Under the pieces are notes generated by a model, which made no database searches, was not told the origin of the DNA, and saw only the letters and a list, made by a program, of their open reading frames with translations. A DNA stretch of 64,000 nucleotides from contig NZ_QPHM01000001.1 in assembly GCF_003336245.1 (NCBI RefSeq), forward strand, positions 248,001-312,000, given 5' to 3'. This stretch comes from Haloplanus salinus (lineage in GTDB: Archaea > Halobacteriota > Halobacteria > Halobacteriales > Haloferacaceae). Positions 1,000-13,427 of the stretch are shown here, in pieces (position 1 is the stretch's first letter; each line of letters begins with the position of its first letter). The translations under genes and the position numbers were made by a program.

Positions 1000-3408
1000 T
1001 TACTGGGGATCCGATCGCTCGACGGTCACGTCGAAGCGTGCGCCGCCCGTGGCGGATTCCTCGACCGCGATCTCCCAGCCGTGTGCCCGCACGATCCGTT
1101 CGACGACCGCCAGTCCGATGCCGGTGCCGTCGGCGGTCGAGGAGTGTCCGTACTCGAAGATGCGGTCCCGCCTGTCCGGCGGAATCCCGGGACCGTCGTC
1201 GGCGACGTAGAACCCGGTCGCCGCGTCGAGGGGGCCGACCCGGACGGTGACGACTGGATCGGACTCGGCGTCAGTGCGTTCGCGACGTTCGTCCGTGGAG
1301 CCGTGTTCCACGCTGTCGTCGGCGTCGGGCCGACTGCAAGTGGAGCCGTGTTCCACGCTGTCGTCGGCGTCGGGCCGACTGCAAGTGGAGCCGTGTTCCA
1401 CGCTGTCGTCGGCGTCGGGCCGACTGCAAGTGGAGCCGTGTTCCACGCTGTCGTCGGCGTCGGGCCGACTGCAAGTGGAGCCGTGCTCCACGCTGTTCCG
1501 AAACAGGTTCTCGAAGAGTTCCTGCAGTCGACCGCGGTCCGCCCGAACGGTGCCGAGGGCGTCGGAACGGCACAGTCGTGCCGCGTCGGTGTCGACGCTC
1601 CGCCACGCGTCGTCGGCGCAGGCGGCGACGTCGACCGGCGATACCTCCCCGATGGCGTCACCCCGGCGAGCAAGCTGGAGGATGTCGGTGATGATCGCCT
1701 CCATCCGGTCGAGAGCGGATCCGAGGGGCGCGACGTGTTCGTCCGGCGCCCCCTCGGCGTCCGCGAGCAGTTCGAGCCGCCCGGCGGCGATGGTCAGCGG
1801 GTTCCGCAGGTCGTGGGCGACGACGCTCGCGAACTCCTCGAGTCGGTCACGTTCGTTCCGAAGCTCCGCCTCCGCCTCGGCGCGGTCGACGGCCGTCTCG
1901 ACGTGCGAGGCGAAGAGGGCGACCGTCTCGCGGTCGTCCTCGTCGAACGCGCCCGCGTCCGTCGACAGCAGTTGCACGACGCCGTGCCCCCCGATCGGGA
2001 CGCTCAGCAGCGATCGGTAGGTGGGCGCCGACGTCGATCCCGTGTCGGGGGGCGAGCCGCTCCGCACGTCGGTCAGATCGTCGATCATCACGGGGTCGCC
2101 GGAGCGGTGTGTCTCCCCCGCGAACCCGGCGTCGATCGGTTGTGGCGACGGGTCACGGACGGGATCGTCGCCGGCGCTCGCCACGGGCACGAGCCGGTCG
2201 CCGTCGACGGCCGCGATCCGGCAGGCGTCGGCCCCGAACGCCTCGTGACCGCCGTCGGCCGCCCGCTGGAACACCTCTTCGGGGGTGTTGGCCGCAGTGA
2301 TGCCGTTGACGACCCGCAGAAGCCCCTCGACGGTCCGGCTTCGTCGGTCCGCGCGCTCCTCCGCCACCTTCCGTGCCGTGACGTCGCGGAGAAGCAGCGC
2401 GTAGCCGGTCCGATCGCCGATCGTGTCGGGGACCGACGAGAACTGGAGGTCGAACACCCGCTGGCCGTCGGGCGTCTCGATCGTCAGTTCGGAGCGCGTC
2501 TCCTCGGCATCGGCGAGGGCGGCGGGCGTCGGCGCGAGTTCGGGGAGCAAGTCGGAGAGCCGTCGACCGATCGCGTCCGACGCCGGGGCGCCGACGACCC
2601 GCACAGCCCGCTGGTTGAGGTCGACGACCCGCCCGTCCGCGTCGAACACGATCGCCGGATCCACCATCGAACGGAACACCTGATCCCTTGTGATGGGCTT
2701 CAGATCCAGCCACTTGAACCGAACGACGCCGAAGGCGCCGGCGACGGCGGTCACCGCGACGGACAGCGGTCCGAAGTTGAGTCCGGGCAACGGGGCGTAG
2801 CCGAGGAGGTCCAGAAGAGCGGCCCCGCCGGGTAGCGTCGCGAACGACAACAGGACGGCGATCTGCCGGCGGAGGATGCCACGCGCCCCGAGCGCCGCAC
2901 CCGCGAGCAACAGGAGCGACGCGACGAGCAACGCGTAGCCGACGAGGACGTAGCCGACGAAGACGGGGGCGTACGTAACGTCGAGGGCCACGAACGACCC
3001 GAGACGAAGCAACTCCGCGTCGAGAAACAACGTCCGTACCGCCGTGGGGATCGCCGCGACGAGCATCAGGCTCGCGGGGGCGAGCGAGAGGAGGCCGAAC
3101 ACCCGCCGCGAGAGCCACTGCGATCGCCCGGTGTACCAGCAGACGTACGCCAGCCAGACGACCGCCAGAGAGAGGATGGCGGCGGTGGTGACGACGCGCC
3201 ATCGGAGCTTCGCCGCGAGCGTCGTCGCCGACAGCTGAACGGTGAAACAGAACACCCACGCGGCGCCGGCGAGCATCAGGAGCCCACCCAGTGTCGCCCC
3301 CGGCGTCTCGTCCTCGTGGCCGAGATACCGGAGGGACAGGGCGAACGCCGTCAGGAGGCCGCCGACGGACAGCAGAGCGAGTGTGTACGGGGTCGATTGA
3401 ACTCCCAT
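1000..3408 (-). CDS. Membrane sensor histidine kinase (7TM-PAS-GAF-HisKA-HATPase) with internal repeat
   Basis: 802 aa. Residues 1-230 hold about seven hydrophobic helices of the histidine-kinase N-terminal 7TM type. A PAS domain follows (about 245-355), then GAF (about 370-510), then the phospho-acceptor helix with VVAHDLRNP (His near 530). The ATPase N-box NLFRNSVEHG lies near 635 and the G boxes DDGPGIP and GTGIGL near the C terminus. Odd feature: just after the N-box, a 15-residue unit (SVEHGSTCSRPDADD) is repeated four times, inserting about 60 residues between N and G1 boxes. The frame stays open, so the kinase may still be functional. No cognate response regulator is adjacent. Signal unknown. 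Confidence 0.9.
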   Translation of the reverse strand: MGVQSTPYTLALLSVGGLLTAFALSLRYLGHEDETPGATLGGLLMLAGAAWVFCFTVQLSATTLAAKLRWRVVTTAAILSLAVVWLAYVCWYTGRSQWLSRRVFGLLSLAPASLMLVAAIPTAVRTLFLDAELLRLGSFVALDVTYAPVFVGYVLVGYALLVASLLLLAGAALGARGILRRQIAVLLSFATLPGGAALLDLLGYAPLPGLNFGPLSVAVTAVAGAFGVVRFKWLDLKPITRDQVFRSMVDPAIVFDADGRVVDLNQRAVRVVGAPASDAIGRRLSDLLPELAPTPAALADAEETRSELTIETPDGQRVFDLQFSSVPDTIGDRTGYALLLRDVTARKVAEERADRRSRTVEGLLRVVNGITAANTPEEVFQRAADGGHEAFGADACRIAAVDGDRLVPVASAGDDPVRDPSPQPIDAGFAGETHRSGDPVMIDDLTDVRSGSPPDTGSTSAPTYRSLLSVPIGGHGVVQLLSTDAGAFDEDDRETVALFASHVETAVDRAEAEAELRNERDRLEEFASVVAHDLRNPLTIAAGRLELLADAEGAPDEHVAPLGSALDRMEAIITDILQLARRGDAIGEVSPVDVAACADDAWRSVDTDAARLCRSDALGTVRADRGRLQELFENLFRNSVEHGSTCSRPDADDSVEHGSTCSRPDADDSVEHGSTCSRPDADDSVEHGSTCSRPDADDSVEHGSTDERRERTDAESDPVVTVRVGPLDAATGFYVADDGPGIPPDRRDRIFEYGHSSTADGTGIGLAVVERIVRAHGWEIAVEESATGGARFDVTVERSDPQ
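1295..1496 (-). repeat. 45-bp tandem repeat, four identical copies plus part of a fifth
   Basis: Units at 1295-1339, 1340-1384, 1385-1429 and 1430-1474 are identical at the DNA level. A partial fifth copy (1475-1496), one base different, is the original kinase N-box. The unit is 45 bp, so each gain or loss keeps the reading frame. Identity of all four copies implies recent expansion by slippage or unequal crossing-over. Confidence 0.97.
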
Positions 3409-8091: not shown

Positions 8092-9099
8092 ATGAAACGG
8101 CCCTGTGTGCGCGTGCCTCGCGAGGCGGGTGAGGGGACGCGACGGGCGCTCGCCGAAGCGGGACTCCTCGACGACGGGTACGAAATCGTCGTCGAGGACG
8201 GTCGGCTCTACCTCCCGGTGGCCGACCGCGAGGTGGTAGACGAGGAGTACGACGTCGTCACCCGCGACGTGCCGGCCCACGACACCCAGCAGACGCCGGC
8301 CGACCGCCTCGGCTTCGATCCCTCGTACGAACGTCTCGGCGACGTGGCCATCCTCGACGAGGACGATCCCGAACGGGCACGCGAGATCGCGACGGCCATC
8401 CTCGACTCGGACCTACCCGTCCGGGCCGTGATCGACCGCGCCTCGAAAGTGAAAGGCGACCTCCGCGTCCGCGACTGGACGGTCGTCGCGCGGGCCGACG
8501 ACGGCGGGAGCGACCGCCCGGTCACCGAGACCGTCCACCGCGAGTACGGGTTCGAGTACCTGCTCGACCTCTCGCAGGTCTACTTCTCGCCCCGCCTCGC
8601 GACCGAGCGCCATCGCGTCACGGAGGGAGTGGCGGCGGGCGAGCACGCGGTCGACATGTTCGCCGGCGTCGGTCCGTTCGCCGTGCCGATGGCGGCCCGC
8701 GGGGCGACCGTCGTCGGCGTCGACCTCAACCCTGCGGCCGTCGAATACCTCCAGGAGAACGCCCGCCGGAACGGCGTCGGCGACCGCGTGACCGCTATCG
8801 AAGGCGACGTGCGCGACGTCGCTGCCGACTACGCCGACTGGGCCGACCGGATCGTGATGAATCTGCCTCACAGCGCCGACGAGTTCCTCGACGTCGCCGT
8901 CACCCTCGCCGCCGCCGACTGTGTGATTCACTACTACGACATTCAACACGAGGACGACCCGTTCGGGCCGGGCGAGCGGGCGATCCGCGAGGCGGCGACG
9001 CCGGCGGGCTACGACGTGGACGTGCTGACCCGGCACGTCGTGCGGTCGTACGCCCCCCACGAGCTGAACGTCTGTCTCGACGTTCGTCTGACACGGTAG
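8092..9099 (+). CDS. trm5: tRNA (guanine37-N1)-methyltransferase Trm5
   Basis: 335 aa. The N-terminal domain (about 1-95) and a middle RNA-binding part lead to a class I SAM-methyltransferase fold. Visible motifs: SAM loop DMFAGVGPFAVP near 185, acidic strand GVDLNP, catalytic motif NLPHSADEFLD near 255, and the C-terminal VRSYAPHELNVCLDV typical of Trm5. It methylates N1 of G37 next to the anticodon, preventing frameshifts and feeding wyosine synthesis. It lies 50 bases before a tRNA gene. Confidence 0.93.
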   Translation: MKRPCVRVPREAGEGTRRALAEAGLLDDGYEIVVEDGRLYLPVADREVVDEEYDVVTRDVPAHDTQQTPADRLGFDPSYERLGDVAILDEDDPERAREIATAILDSDLPVRAVIDRASKVKGDLRVRDWTVVARADDGGSDRPVTETVHREYGFEYLLDLSQVYFSPRLATERHRVTEGVAAGEHAVDMFAGVGPFAVPMAARGATVVGVDLNPAAVEYLQENARRNGVGDRVTAIEGDVRDVAADYADWADRIVMNLPHSADEFLDVAVTLAAADCVIHYYDIQHEDDPFGPGERAIREAATPAGYDVDVLTRHVVRSYAPHELNVCLDVRLTR

Positions 9100-9113
9100 G
9101 GGCGTTTCGGAAC

Positions 9114-9122
9114 CCTTATTTG
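9114..9122 (+). promoter_or_regulatory. TATA-like box of tRNA-Thr
   Basis: CTTATTTGA lies 27-35 bases ahead of the mature tRNA 5' end, consistent with its own archaeal promoter between trm5 and the tRNA. Confidence 0.5.
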
Positions 9123-9148
9123 AACGATGGCAGTACGAACGAATGCGT

Positions 9149-9221
9149 GCCGGAGTAGCTCAGCTGGCAGAGCGATTCCTTCGTAAGGAATAGGCCGAGG
9201 GTTCAAATCCCTCCTCCGGCT
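9149..9221 (+). tRNA. tRNA-Thr (anticodon CGT)
   Basis: 73 bases forming a complete cloverleaf. The acceptor stem pairs GCCGGAG with CTCCGGC; the D stem is GCTC/GAGC. The anticodon stem ATTCC/GGAAT carries loop TTCGTAA with CGT at 9182-9184. The T stem is GAGGG/CCCTC with loop TTCAAAT. The discriminator is T; CCA is not encoded, and there is no intron. It reads ACG codons, which suits this GC-rich genome. Confidence 0.96.
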
Positions 9222-9245
9222 CTTCTAACGGAACGAAGTGGGGCC

Positions 9246-9271
9246 GAAGAGCCGTGGGAGGGATTCGAACC
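9246..9271 (-). repeat. Inverted partial copy of a tRNA 3' end
   Basis: Read on the minus strand, these 26 bases match 9200-9225 (T-arm, acceptor 3' strand and the following CTTC) with three differences. It includes a canonical GGTTCGAATCC T-arm. The two copies face each other 20 bases apart. It may be a remnant of another tRNA or of an integration site; alternatively the pair folds as a hairpin that ends the tRNA transcript. Confidence 0.7.
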
Positions 9272-9530
9272 AAGGCACAGCGTGCTGCGGCCGCGGTTCA
9301 CGGGGAGTACGCGGGACACGCTGTGGCTCCCGGGGAGTCCGGCGAGTTTGATCCGGTGATCGTGAACGACATACGGCGGCGTGGTGTAGCCCTATCGATC
9401 CCGTCTTCCGTGGTGTTCCCGCGACCGTCGACTGAGTCTCCGAGCCGCTCTGCCCTCGTCGGTCGAGCGTTTTGCCGATCGGATCGACCGGGTACGGGAC
9501 GACGTCACGCACCGGACGTCGACGGGGCGA
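9272..9530. other. Spacer without recognisable gene
   Basis: About 260 bases between the inverted tRNA piece and the 3' end of the ABC importer operon. Open frames here have atypical, Arg/Ser/Pro-rich composition and no family signature. I see no RNA gene. Confidence 0.6.
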
Positions 9531-10349
9531 TCAGGCGTCGGTCGCGAGCCGTTCGATCCCCGCGAGCGCCGTGCCGACAAGCACCAGTAACACCACCGCC
9601 GCCAGCAGGATCGTCGACACCACGCTCACCAGCGGGTCGAGGCTCTGTCTGAGCGAGTTCCACGCCTGGACCGGCACGGTCCGTGTGTCGGGTCCCGAGA
9701 GAAACAGCGCCATCACGAACTCCTGGAGGCTGACGATGAACGCGACGAGCGCCGCGACGACCAGTCCCGTCCGCACCTCGGGGACGACGACGGCCCGGAA
9801 CGCGACGAGTCTCGATGCCCCGAGGTCGCGGGCGGCCTCGTGGCGCCGCCAGTCGAACCGGGCGAACGACGACTGCATCACGGAGAAGGTGAGCGGCGTC
9901 GCCCACAGCGAGTGTGCCAACACGAGCGCGAGATAGCTCTGCTGGAGGCCGAACACGCTGAAGAAGGTCAACAGGCTCACCCCGATGACGACGCCGGGGA
10001 CGAGCAGGGGTAGCAGCGCGAGGCCGACGAGCGCTCCTCGGAACCGCCCGCCGTACCGGCGGAGGCCGAGCGCCGCCGTCGTGCCGACGAGCATCGAGAG
10101 CGCGCTCGTTCCTGTGGCGACGACGAGGCTGTTGAGAAGCGACCGGAGCCACGTCGGCGAGGCCAGCAGTTCGCCGAACCACCGTCCCGAGAGTTCGGTC
10201 GGCGGGAAGACGACGGCGCTCGAAGCGTCGAAGGCCGTCGCGACGACGATGCCCAGCGGGAGCACGAGCAGACAGAACAGGGTCGCGATCAGCCCCCTGA
10301 ACAGCCAGCCACGGACCGTACGTCCTTCGATCTCAACCAAGGAGTTCAC
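9531..10349 (-). CDS. ABC importer permease (PotC-like)
   Basis: 272 aa with six predicted membrane helices. It carries the binding-protein-dependent permease coupling motif: EAARDLGASRLVAFRAVVVP near residues 165-185. Last gene of a four-gene minus-strand operon (binding protein, ATPase, permease, permease); its ATG lies 17 bases inside the upstream permease gene. The family imports spermidine/putrescine, Fe(III), thiamine, or phosphonates; the sequence does not tell which. Confidence 0.85.
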   Translation of the reverse strand: MNSLVEIEGRTVRGWLFRGLIATLFCLLVLPLGIVVATAFDASSAVVFPPTELSGRWFGELLASPTWLRSLLNSLVVATGTSALSMLVGTTAALGLRRYGGRFRGALVGLALLPLLVPGVVIGVSLLTFFSVFGLQQSYLALVLAHSLWATPLTFSVMQSSFARFDWRRHEAARDLGASRLVAFRAVVVPEVRTGLVVAALVAFIVSLQEFVMALFLSGPDTRTVPVQAWNSLRQSLDPLVSVVSTILLAAVVLLVLVGTALAGIERLATDA

Positions 10350-11229
10350 CCCCGTCGTCGAGTCGCCACAGGCCGGCGAGCAGCGCCGCCAACACGACGG
10401 CCACGGTGACCACCGCGAGGGCGGCGGCGGCGGGCCAGTCGAACTCGGCCAGTAGGAGCTGCGAGACTAGGATGGCGTTGGTCTGCTCGCTTCCCGATCC
10501 GACCAACAGCGGGGCGGGGTAGGCGCCGACCGACCAGGTGAAGCTGATCACCGCGGCGACGGCGACGCCGGGCCGGGCGTGTGGAACCACCACCTCGCGG
10601 AAGACGGCGGGACCGTCGGCTCCTAAGTCACGAGCCGCCTCGGCGAGGTGGTCGTCGAGCGTCGAGAGCACCGCGTACACCGCGAGGACGGCGTAGGGAA
10701 CGACGATGTACAGTTGCGCGATGACGGCGCCGACGGGGTTGTCCACCAACAGGAGGGGTTCGGTGAGGACCCCGGCGCCGACGAGGAGGTCGTTGAGAAC
10801 GCCCCGCGGCGAGAACACGAGGACGACCGCGAACAGCTTGACGACGATGGTCGTAAACAGCGAGAGGACCGCCCCGGCGAGCAACGCCGTCCGCCACCAC
10901 CCGGTCGCCCGCCAGGCTGCGTAGGCGTAGGCGACGGCCACCGCCACCGCGAGCGCCGTCACGAGGACGGCAAAACCCATCGTGAACGCGAATATCTCGT
11001 GGACGAGGGGCGTCTCGGCGACGTACTCGTAGCCCGAGAGCGACCACGACCCCTCGACGAACGCGCCGCCGGTCGTTCGCTCGGCGAGGCTCAGCCGGAA
11101 CAGATAGCCCATCGGGACGAGAAAGACGACCCCATCGAGGATCAACAGCGGTGCCAACAGGGCGACGGTCCGCCACCGAGCGGGAAGCGCGGCGAACGCA
11201 CGGGTCCAGCGAGCGTCGCTCAGCGACAT
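10333..11229 (-). CDS. ABC importer permease (PotB-like)
   Basis: 298 aa, about six membrane helices. The cytoplasmic loop motif EAARDLGADGPAVFREVVVP (near residues 200-220) marks the contact with the ATPase. It overlaps both neighbours: its start lies within the end of the ATPase gene and its end within the start of the second permease. Together the two permeases should form the heterodimeric channel of a PotABCD-type importer. Confidence 0.85.
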   Translation of the reverse strand: MSLSDARWTRAFAALPARWRTVALLAPLLILDGVVFLVPMGYLFRLSLAERTTGGAFVEGSWSLSGYEYVAETPLVHEIFAFTMGFAVLVTALAVAVAVAYAYAAWRATGWWRTALLAGAVLSLFTTIVVKLFAVVLVFSPRGVLNDLLVGAGVLTEPLLLVDNPVGAVIAQLYIVVPYAVLAVYAVLSTLDDHLAEAARDLGADGPAVFREVVVPHARPGVAVAAVISFTWSVGAYPAPLLVGSGSEQTNAILVSQLLLAEFDWPAAAALAVVTVAVVLAALLAGLWRLDDGGELLG

Positions 11230-12332
11230 CGGCCCCCGGACGCGTCGAAGTACCGCGCCTCGCTCGGCGCGAACCGGACCGTCAGCCGGTCGCCGGGTGC
11301 GACGCCCGGCGCCGACGCGACCGAGGGCTCGACGAACAGGGTCGTCTCCCCGGCCGAGAGCCGAATCCGGACGTCCGATCCGCGGTAGACGGTCTCCTCG
11401 ACCCTGGTGGTGACGGAGACGGTCGCCTCGCCGCCGTCGCCGACCGCCTGTGAGTTGGCGCCGACCCGCCCGGCGGGCGCGAACGAGAGCCGTTCCGGCC
11501 GTAGCGAGACGACGACGGCGTCGCCGGTCGCGAGCCCCGCGCCGTCGATGGGCGCCTCGAAGTCGACGCCGAACGGGGTCCCGAGCGTCGGCCCTCGTTC
11601 GTCGACGACCCTGCAGTCGACGAAGTTCGTCGTTCCGAGAAACGACTCGACGAACCGATCGGTCGGATCGTCGTAGACCGTCTCGGGTGCGTCGAGCTGG
11701 ACGAGTCGCCCGTCGTTCATCACGCCGAGTCGCTCGCCGAGCGTGAACGCCTCGTCCTGGTCGTGCGTGACGTAGAGCATCGTCGTTCCGACGCGGTCGT
11801 GGATGCGCTTGAGTTCGAGCTGCATCGTCTCGCGGAGCCGTCGGTCGAGATTCGACAGCGGCTCGTCCAACAACAGGAGATCCGGGTCGAGGGCGAGCGA
11901 GCGGGCCAGCGCCACCCGCTGTTTCTGTCCGCCGCTCAGCTGTGCCGGCCGTGAGTCGCCGTATCCGGCCATCTCGACGAGTTCGAGCATTTCGTCGGTG
12001 CGGGCGTCACGCTCCGTGGCCGGCACGCCGTCCATCTTCAGCCCGAACTCGACGTTCTCACGCACGCTCCGGTAGGGGAACAGTGCCCAGTCCTGAAACA
12101 CCATCGAACAGTCGCGCTCGTTCGGCGGCCGCTCGGTGACGTCGGCGCCGTCGAGCCGGATCCGCCCGGCCGCCGGCGTCTCGAACCCCGACACCGCCCG
12201 GAGCACCGTCGACTTTCCCGAGCCGCTCGGGCCGAGCAGACAGCAGAACTCCCCTTCCGCCACGGTGAACGAGACGTCGTCGACGGCCGTCAGGTCGCCG
12301 TAGGTGACGGTGAGTCCGTCGAGTTCGAGCAT
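11220..12332 (-). CDS. ABC importer ATPase (PotA-like) with TOBE domain
   Basis: 370 aa. ATPase core residues 1-235: Walker A GPSGSGKST near 34-42, signature LSGGQKQR near 135, Walker B LLLLDEPLSNLD, switch THDQDEA. The MVFQDWALFPYRSVREN stretch is typical of the PotA/FbpC/MalK group. A C-terminal TOBE-like barrel (about 245-365) follows, where such transporters may sense substrate. Its ATG follows the TAG of the binding-protein gene with no gap (TAGATG), so coupling is expected. Confidence 0.9.
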   Translation of the reverse strand: MLELDGLTVTYGDLTAVDDVSFTVAEGEFCCLLGPSGSGKSTVLRAVSGFETPAAGRIRLDGADVTERPPNERDCSMVFQDWALFPYRSVRENVEFGLKMDGVPATERDARTDEMLELVEMAGYGDSRPAQLSGGQKQRVALARSLALDPDLLLLDEPLSNLDRRLRETMQLELKRIHDRVGTTMLYVTHDQDEAFTLGERLGVMNDGRLVQLDAPETVYDDPTDRFVESFLGTTNFVDCRVVDERGPTLGTPFGVDFEAPIDGAGLATGDAVVVSLRPERLSFAPAGRVGANSQAVGDGGEATVSVTTRVEETVYRGSDVRIRLSAGETTLFVEPSVASAPGVAPGDRLTVRFAPSEARYFDASGGRCR

Positions 12333-13427
12333 CTAGTTGTCCTGGACGAACGATCGGAACCGCTCGCTCATCTCGCCGGAGAACTCCGCGACGCCGGCGA
12401 AGTTCTGGAACGCGATCCGGTCGAGTTCGTCGTTCGTCGTCGGCAGCTCCGCGGCGGTTTCGTCCGGATAGGTCGTCTCCGCGTGTGAGAACCCGAGGTT
12501 GAACGCGTCCGCGTAGGCGGTCTGGACCTCCGGGTCGAGCAGGAAGTCGATGAACTCCGTCGCCATCGCCTCCTTCGAGGTGCCCCGGACGATCTGGTAG
12601 TAGTCGATGTAGCCCGTCGTCGGCTCCGGGACCGTGACGCCGATGGGATACTCGTCGGTGTCCCGTGCCTTGCGCAGCCCGTACGCGAAAAAGTAGTGAC
12701 CGACGTCGGCCAGCCCCTCCGAGAGGGCAGTCCAAAGCTGCTGAGTCCCCTGATAGAACGTCGACACTGGGAGGCCCTCGATGACCTCGAACAGCCCGTC
12801 CATGTACCGACGGTCGTACACCTCGTCGGCCATGGGCTCGTCGTCGGCCAGCAACGCCGCCATCATGAACAGTTTGAGCCAGAAGTCGCTGGGTAGCGCG
12901 ACGTTCGCCGCCGCCGCCGACCGAAGGTCGGTCCACGTCTCGGGCGTCCACGACGCCGCCGCCTCGTTGTAGACGTACGCGTGGGCGCCGTACGCGACGG
13001 GGACGCCCACCTCGGCCATTCGGTACTGGCGGAGGTTGGACTTGATTCCGCCCGCGTTCGAGAGGTCGGCGTATTCGACCGGGATCCAGAGGTCGTCCTG
13101 CTGGCCGCGGTGGTTCGTCCGCCCGACGCCGACGGTGACGTCGAACGGCGGGTCGTCCTCCGGCGACTGCCGGATCTTCGAGAGAATCCCCTGCCAGTTG
13201 CCACTCAGTTCGAGCGTGTTGCCGGTTCGGTCCTCGTACAGCGGCTTGATGGTCTCGCGGAACACCGTCTCGTTGGTGCCGCTCCACACCGACACCCTGA
13301 GGACGTCCCCTCCGGACGATCCGAACACGCCGGCACAACCGCTCAGTGCCGTCGTCGCAGCCACGCCGCCGGCGAGAAAGCCCCGCCGGCCGACCGTACG
13401 GCCCCGCTCCGCATCCCGCTTGGGCAT
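12333..13427 (-). CDS. ABC importer substrate-binding lipoprotein (PotD-like, Tat-exported)
   Basis: 364 aa. The N terminus has a twin-arginine signal (GRRGFLAGGVAATTALSG) ending in a lipobox LSGC at about residue 30, so the protein should be exported folded and anchored by lipid. The mature part resembles type-2 periplasmic binding proteins of the PotD/Fe(III)/thiamine group (LRVSVWSGTNE, FDVTVGV, NEAAASWTPETWTDL, FIDFLLDPEVQTAYAD). First gene of the operon; a TTTTATT box on the minus strand (13448-13457) lies about 25 bases upstream. Ligand unknown. Confidence 0.87.
   Translation of the reverse strand: MPKRDAERGRTVGRRGFLAGGVAATTALSGCAGVFGSSGGDVLRVSVWSGTNETVFRETIKPLYEDRTGNTLELSGNWQGILSKIRQSPEDDPPFDVTVGVGRTNHRGQQDDLWIPVEYADLSNAGGIKSNLRQYRMAEVGVPVAYGAHAYVYNEAAASWTPETWTDLRSAAAANVALPSDFWLKLFMMAALLADDEPMADEVYDRRYMDGLFEVIEGLPVSTFYQGTQQLWTALSEGLADVGHYFFAYGLRKARDTDEYPIGVTVPEPTTGYIDYYQIVRGTSKEAMATEFIDFLLDPEVQTAYADAFNLGFSHAETTYPDETAAELPTTNDELDRIAFQNFAGVAEFSGEMSERFRSFVQDN

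Follow-up and report, generated by a model that had tools for sequence, protein, structure and literature searches.

An inverted tRNA-Thr 3' end in Haloplanus salinus as a possible fossil of a haloarchaeal family of tRNA-end repeats

Cis-mobilizable elements (CIMEs) carry attachment-like direct repeats at their ends, have no recombination gene and grow by tandem accretion, according to the portion of PMC5704250 at hand. The attC sites of integrons are described, in excerpts from PMC8946536, as strand-selective imperfect palindromes with a variable tip. In Haloquadratum walsbyi, palindrome-associated transposable elements (PATEs), miniature inverted-repeat transposable elements (MITEs) and small mobile repeats are non-coding and contain palindromes or inverted repeats (PMC3119063, tabulated data). 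Here we consider a 64,000-nt window of Haloplanus salinus (the whole stretch analysed, positions 248,001 to 312,000 of contig NZ_QPHM01000001.1), in which the 3' end of a tRNA-Thr(CGT) gene faces an inverted copy of itself. A preliminary description had offered integration or a terminator hairpin as the explanation. We put the probability at roughly 0.5 that the inverted pair is the fossil of one unit from a family of very small non-coding repeats that haloarchaea carry at their tRNA 3' ends, and that the units turn over by recombination at D, the repeated tRNA end. An intact unit has the order hA-I-hB-D2 and lies directly 3' of the tRNA's own end, D1 (22 nt); hA and hB are hairpins, I is an inverted T-arm and D2 is a second direct copy of the tRNA end.

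The units are like CIMEs, so far as these are described in that portion of PMC5704250, in having direct end repeats (the 22-nt D1 and D2), no recombination gene and tandem accretion, and there is no room for a gene inside them. They differ in being 80-152 bp long in the analysed set and in sharing, across many tRNAs, a folded core that is conserved and comes in recurring types; a larger parent element was not found, the element ends in two relatives (G003 and G011) having been viewed by eye with no systematic search. Like integron arrays and clusters of attC sites lacking integron-integrases (CALINs), as the excerpts from PMC8946536 portray them, the units stand in tandem and in one orientation, and each has at its end an imperfect palindrome that is strand-selective and varies at the tip; tandem sites that fold on one strand are present, as judged without attC boxes. 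Unlike cassettes, the units analysed carry no genes, the tRNA gene is the platform, and the fold is conserved on the tRNA-sense strand. None of 40 genomes has an integron integrase (TIGR02249) above the 265-bit cut-off, the best score being 59.6 bits, and the units are therefore not classed as integrons. A term search of the accessible text of a paper on archaeal integrons (PMC9668308) gave no occurrence of "Halobacter", "haloarchaea" or "tRNA". The units share small size, lack of coding capacity and palindromes or inverted repeats with the PATEs and MITEs tabulated in PMC3119063. That table gives no tie to tRNA ends, whereas all 18 matches to a core motif of the units in the H. salinus genome stand behind tRNAs. 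Nor do the units show the genome-wide spread without a repeated target of PATE or IS605-type elements, since 24 of 25 covariance-model matches also lie behind tRNAs and D is repeated. Finally, archaeal elements that integrate at tRNA genes with tyrosine integrases (SNJ2, pNOB8 and others) are kilobases long and carry an integrase gene, unlike the units; the elements of G003 and G011 share the D of this locus.

Unit architecture and the copy in the window

The following counts refer to H. salinus and two further genomes (G002 and G004), all three close relatives of one another. D copies matching the last 22 nt of their tRNA at ≥18 positions number 76 at 53 tRNAs, and 67 of the 76 inter-D intervals measure 40-140 nt. 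D2 agrees with the tRNA at 0.86-1.0 across the 22 positions, values inflated by the ≥18/22 selection of the copies. I matches the tRNA from the T-loop to the top of the T-stem. A match to this part at ≥9/11 was found in 57 of the 67 intervals, in none when reversed, in 2.2% of dinucleotide shuffles and in 23 when the D of another tRNA was used; at ≥10/11 the tRNA's own end is matched in 35 intervals and that of another tRNA in 3. As judged from these matches, I follows its own tRNA. The ≥9/11 measure replaced an initial criterion (≥6/10 after a loose pattern), which was dropped as lax, having been passed by 50% of shuffled and 31/67 reversed intervals and by 50/77 tRNAs lacking D2.

The hairpins behave differently from each other. 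hB falls into recurring types that are common to different tRNAs and genomes: the Ala(CGC) and Asp(GTC) units of H. salinus have an identical 45-nt hB and different hA, and among 480 pairs of different tRNAs within a genome, hB similarity reaches 0.9 in 10 and hA similarity in 0. Two or more D copies (≥18/22) are present at 15 of 130 tRNAs. One series, at a Met tRNA of G004, has five D copies spaced by 123 bp with hA and hB identical among them.

The window locus contains the tRNA end, hA, I, hB and the start of D2 in this order (Table 1), and is alignable with an intact unit of G002 (89% over query bases 1-183, base 183 being window position 9302). A repeat search of the window recovered the 26-nt inverted pair of the preliminary description with its three differences (arms 9200-9225 and 9246-9271; 23/26, 88% complementary; spacing 20 nt). 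The first arm is the 3' end of the tRNA plus four trailer bases, so that the pair does include the T-arm and bases beyond the tRNA, as had been said. D1 comprises the end of the 5' strand of the T-stem, the T-loop, the 3' strands of the T-stem and acceptor, and the discriminator. The T-loop part of I has 10/11 matching positions and, unusually, the acceptor part is retained as well; the inverted-match score of 16 is the highest among the 44 H. salinus tRNA loci scored. At its tip (9230-9241) hA reads GGAACGAAGTGG, a degenerate version of the tip motif GARC-N-GYGA; the corresponding sequence in G002 is CGAACGAAGTGAG. Beyond its first 8 nt D2 is unrecognisable. With much of hB and most of D2 lost from the window unit, the inverted arm is its conspicuous part. 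A second short inverted pair (9273-9284 and 9317-9328; 12 nt, 92% complementary) lies just 3' of the main pair and overlaps the decayed hB.

Table 1. Features in and around the tRNA-Thr(CGT) locus, in window coordinates
Feature	Position	Strand	Remarks
tRNA-Thr(CGT) gene	9149..9221	+	ARAGORN 9149-9222; Rfam RF00005 C1:257149-257221 = window 9149-9221
D1	9200..9221	+	Last 22 nt of tRNA; segment repeated in intact units, likewise at other tRNAs
hA	9222..9245	+	Trailer hairpin separating the arms
I	9246..9271	-	tRNA 3' end inverted, plus four trailer bases; 23/26
hB	9272..9294	+	Second hairpin, decayed; alignable with hB of G002
D2 remnant	9295..9302	+	First 8 nt (GGTTCACG), as in the second direct copy of G002
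Methyltransferase gene	8092-9099		Trm5/TYW2-like; precedes the tRNA
ABC importer operon	9531-13427	-	
Tandem repeat	1295-1519		45-nt period; several identical consecutive copies

No third copy of the arm was found in the H. salinus genome at ≤3 mismatches to the degenerate consensus of both arms. The direct copy farther away that the preliminary description had proposed to look for thus did not appear, and a source tRNA elsewhere in the genome was rejected. The importer operon it had placed in the following 5 kb is present, and no link between this operon and the repeat was found.

Distribution, gain and loss of units

A census of the three genomes found a D copy (score ≥15/22) within 330 nt downstream of 55 of 130 tRNA loci (20/44 in H. 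salinus, 21/44 in G002 and 14/42 in G004), upstream of 0/130 and in 0/130 reversed controls. Inverted matches of ≥12 to the last 22 nt of the tRNA were seen downstream of 27 of the 130, with none upstream and none in reversed controls. The census and the comparison of filled and empty tRNAs described below set aside 16 of the 60 H. salinus tRNA entries, which form a tRNA cluster on contig C3. As the tRNAs for the other locus comparisons were partly chosen by pattern, only these two analyses are unbiased.

The core motif CAGGGA-N8-38-GACCGTGGTTC has 18 matches in the H. salinus genome, all within 450 nt downstream of a same-strand tRNA, and the reversed pattern has 0. Within the family, 96 of 119 genomes contain it. 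Among 80 GTDB stretches, out of at least 120, whose titles all name haloarchaea or archaeal metagenome-assembled genomes, 77 of 82 core matches have a same-strand tRNA 36-301 nt upstream, and 27 kinds of tRNA are involved. Four of the other five lie too close to the edge of the locus, and for one no tRNA was found, though it stands behind a D-like copy. A covariance model of I-hB-D2, R1, built from 20 of 28 sequences and run under stricter filters, found matches in 21 of 24 genomes of the same order and in 0 of 124 others of the phylum; in H. salinus, 24 of its 25 matches lie ≤450 nt behind tRNAs. A simpler pattern of paired T-loops gave 21/24 within the order, 7/124 outside it and 0 when reversed. 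Five genomes of a family in another order (f33; G179, G196, G207, G229 and G238) have in common one near-identical pair of a T-loop and an inverted T-loop, which is a separate conserved site, distinct from the units. Besides tRNA, no Rfam 15 family was detected at eight loci (only RF00005 at E <= 0.1), and no known description of the units was found in a literature search whose coverage lay outside most subscription journals.

The C3 locus L343 (G000:C3:150500-165000, G000 being H. salinus) has 15 ARAGORN tRNA calls on the minus strand at 8367-12175, of which 13 are packed at 10609-12175. It lies on a 409-kb second contig with a weak integrase match about 8 kb away (C3:152598-153254), and the cluster resembles an array of tRNA genes borne by a plasmid or virus.

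At tRNA-Thr(CGT) itself, sequences matching window 9120-9400 cover the inverted copy in several relatives, one of which (G028) belongs to another family. All or part of the unit plan was seen at 10 of 29 loci of relatives (L034, L035, L036, L037, L041, L045, L046, L048, L051 and L057), from at least three families and with varying hB; the unit is missing at this tRNA in other relatives. The preliminary description had held that conservation of the pair in distant haloarchaea would favour a terminator. The pair does occur there, but as part of a varying repeat unit. Elements of roughly 9.8 kb that include a gene for a Phage_integrase (PF00589) occupy tRNA-Thr(CGT), with the same D, in G003 and G011, and in both an open reading frame (ORF) similar to the Trm5/TYW2-like methyltransferase precedes the tRNA. 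The tRNA 3' end is thus an integration site in relatives, as had been supposed for this locus. In G003 the order is tRNA, element and then hA-I-hB. Since hA-I-hB lies beyond the element, it predates it; since the element stands between the tRNA and the hairpin with the inverted copy, the inverted copy is not the end of that element, and a provirus end was ruled out as its source. In another genome (G018, locus L219, minus strand), two tRNA-Thr 3' ends at 1209 and 6125, about 4.9 kb apart, are each followed by similar sequence, as if elements had integrated in tandem at one tRNA.

When matching tRNAs of H. salinus, G002 and G004 are compared, they are found to differ by entire units. Of 55 comparisons of a filled with an empty tRNA, 7 show the sequence that follows the last D aligning, right from base 0, with that following D1 in the empty relative. 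The best exact joint is at Glu(CTC) of G002 and H. salinus, with a 101-bp unit and a score of 210 over 250 nt; the others are at Gly(CCC) (G002/G004), Leu(CAA) twice, Leu(GAG) twice and Pro (H. salinus/G002). The H. salinus Leu(CAA) joint is less clear because hA itself resembles the flank. The comparison covers cases with at least 100 nt of flank left, and so omits for instance L206 of G004, and its Met(CAT) rows mix distinct tRNAs that share this anticodon.

Folding and strand preference

The fold is conserved in the set of 20 units that were aligned with MAFFT and given a structure drawn by hand. Both sides of a pair changed in 28 cells, as compared with 9.0 (sd 2.9) after shuffling, and 0 of 500 shuffles reached this value; the covariation score is 0.219 vs. 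0.106 for shuffled alignments and ≤0.051 for slid versions. In 42 hB sequences, hand-picked for a fixed frame among the core matches listed for the family and the hB compared between tRNAs above, the outer four tip positions are Watson-Crick in 108 of 168 cases, against 52 (sd 5) after shuffling and a maximum of 72 in 5000 shuffles.

The tip motif GARC-N3-5-GYGA is able to form tandem G-A pairs. It occurs 97 times in sense and 2 times in antisense in 5,362 nt of units, the corresponding numbers for the 64-kb window being 37 and 39. Its R and Y positions combine in the units as A-T 32, G-C 50, A-C 5 and G-T 4 (Fisher p 5e-15), and this covariation is absent in the window control (p 0.59). The motif falls within the first 80 nt at 43 of 53 filled tRNAs vs. 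11 of 77 empty ones. Of 58 distinct units, 51 have the lower minimum free energy (MFE) on the sense strand, and a U-G pair joins columns 13 and 53 in 17 of 20. The conserved fold and the one-strand tip motif together indicate present or past selection for a single-stranded form of the sense strand, either RNA or DNA. In the window, RNA folding of 9149-9310 (z -4.39) and DNA folding of 9198-9310 (z -3.56) both beat shuffles. The RNA MFE fold pairs the 3' strand of the T-arm and acceptor with the inverted copy, leaving the cloverleaf unclosed.

Recombination and rival explanations

Direct repeats from the T-loop to the discriminator are the expected product of an integrase acting at tRNA 3' ends, integrase-bearing elements use the same D, and the array order is integron-like; recombination at D is therefore favoured. 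Units would be gained and lost through recombination between D copies, with D serving as the attachment site. The acting enzymes would probably be tyrosine recombinases specific for tRNA 3' ends, supplied in trans by resident integrative elements, and the folded I-hB-D2 hairpin may serve as the recognition structure, by analogy with attC in integrons. A stronger form of this proposal, that the units make up a gene-less cassette system in which tRNA 3' ends are an attI-like platform capturing units serially via a trans-acting tyrosine recombinase, with I-hB-D2 recombined as a folded single strand, is tentative and in our opinion unlikely.

Several observations weigh against turnover at D, or against the membership of the window copy. 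At E <= 10, R1 does not match anywhere in the window; with filters off it gives 6.1 bits at 9267-9299 (E 0.11 in 301 nt). As many as 77 of the 130 tRNAs lack any D copy at ≥18/22. In most units the match of I in its acceptor half is close to random, and this part of the position profile is unaffected by the lax selection that inflated the T-loop positions. One R1 match (G000:C1:764368-764439, locus L342, 47.1 bits) has no tRNA found within 2 kb; its unit-like I-hB-D2 stands behind a T-loop-like sequence and may be at a secondary target or a relic of a lost tRNA. The flanks in 48 of the 55 filled/empty comparisons do not join from base 0, many having no alignable flank, and such pairs are uninformative. 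Exact empty joints can be obtained by insertion or by precise deletion between D copies, and gene conversion could account for the sharing of hB. The numbers of core matches and PF00589 genes are weakly correlated (Spearman 0.20, p 0.026, n 119), and no correlation is detectable within the genus (0.24, p 0.45, n 12). The sole match on a viral contig to a joint of hB and D, which would mark a viral attachment site, lies inside a phage-like 758-aa ORF of a tRNA-less contig and was taken as chance. No excised form, acting enzyme or insertion polarity was seen.

The units could instead be RNA devices, that is, structured tRNA trailers with a role in 3' end formation, termination or exonuclease block, multiplied by homologous recombination or gene conversion between D copies with no dedicated recombinase. 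The lower MFE of the sense strand, the U-G pair and the enrichment of the tip motif at filled tRNAs all speak for this explanation, as does the report that, in Haloferax volcanii, 59% of transcripts were ended by a hairpin tested in vivo (PMC7237163, in the part available). It leaves unexplained why the last part of a unit is a complete copy of the tRNA end, acceptor included (the copies having been selected at ≥18/22) and how exact joints arise at previously unduplicated tRNAs, and 77 of 130 tRNAs manage without a D copy. We consider it possible, if on the doubtful side. Template switching during replication, in which the nascent strand would fold back at hA, make an inverted copy of the tRNA end, refold at hB and return, would give the order D-hA-I-hB-D in a single event and would account for the tRNA-specific I and the long arm in the window. 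Since the same hB types are met again at different tRNAs and in different genomes, however, hB is not made anew, and the near-random acceptor half of I contrasts with the matching D2, so that this route appears quite improbable.

Although elements with integrases do sit at this tRNA in G003 and G011, a relic left by a conventional provirus or plasmid that integrated at tRNA-Thr(CGT) is very improbable as the origin of the inverted copy: the G003 unit lies outside the element, which largely refutes it, many other tRNAs show the same plan, and the arm lacks a third copy in the H. salinus genome. T-loops are alike, and a match of T-loop size alone is therefore weak, as the 23 of 67 intervals matched at ≥9/11 by the D of another tRNA illustrate; chance similarity of T-arm sequences is nonetheless refuted by the census, the T-loop pair pattern, the covariation and the specificity controls for I, and its probability is negligible. 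The pair belongs to a unit with differing hB that is absent in some relatives and often tandem elsewhere, which makes terminator or integration an incomplete choice: the pair is not a stand-alone terminator, nor is it a provirus end.

If turnover of units by recombination at D is right, a large share of the tRNA genes in most haloarchaeal genomes carry a repeat family that was not found described, and some pre-tRNAs bear trailers whose fold rivals that of the tRNA. Inverted or duplicated tRNA ends in haloarchaea should then not be taken for provirus borders until a unit has been checked for. The units may mark or seed integration hot spots, and they may reveal recombination of folded single-stranded sites in archaea. 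Should the cassette form of the proposal be true, the units would constitute an archaeal counterpart of integron arrays that occurs in most of the sampled haloarchaeal genomes.
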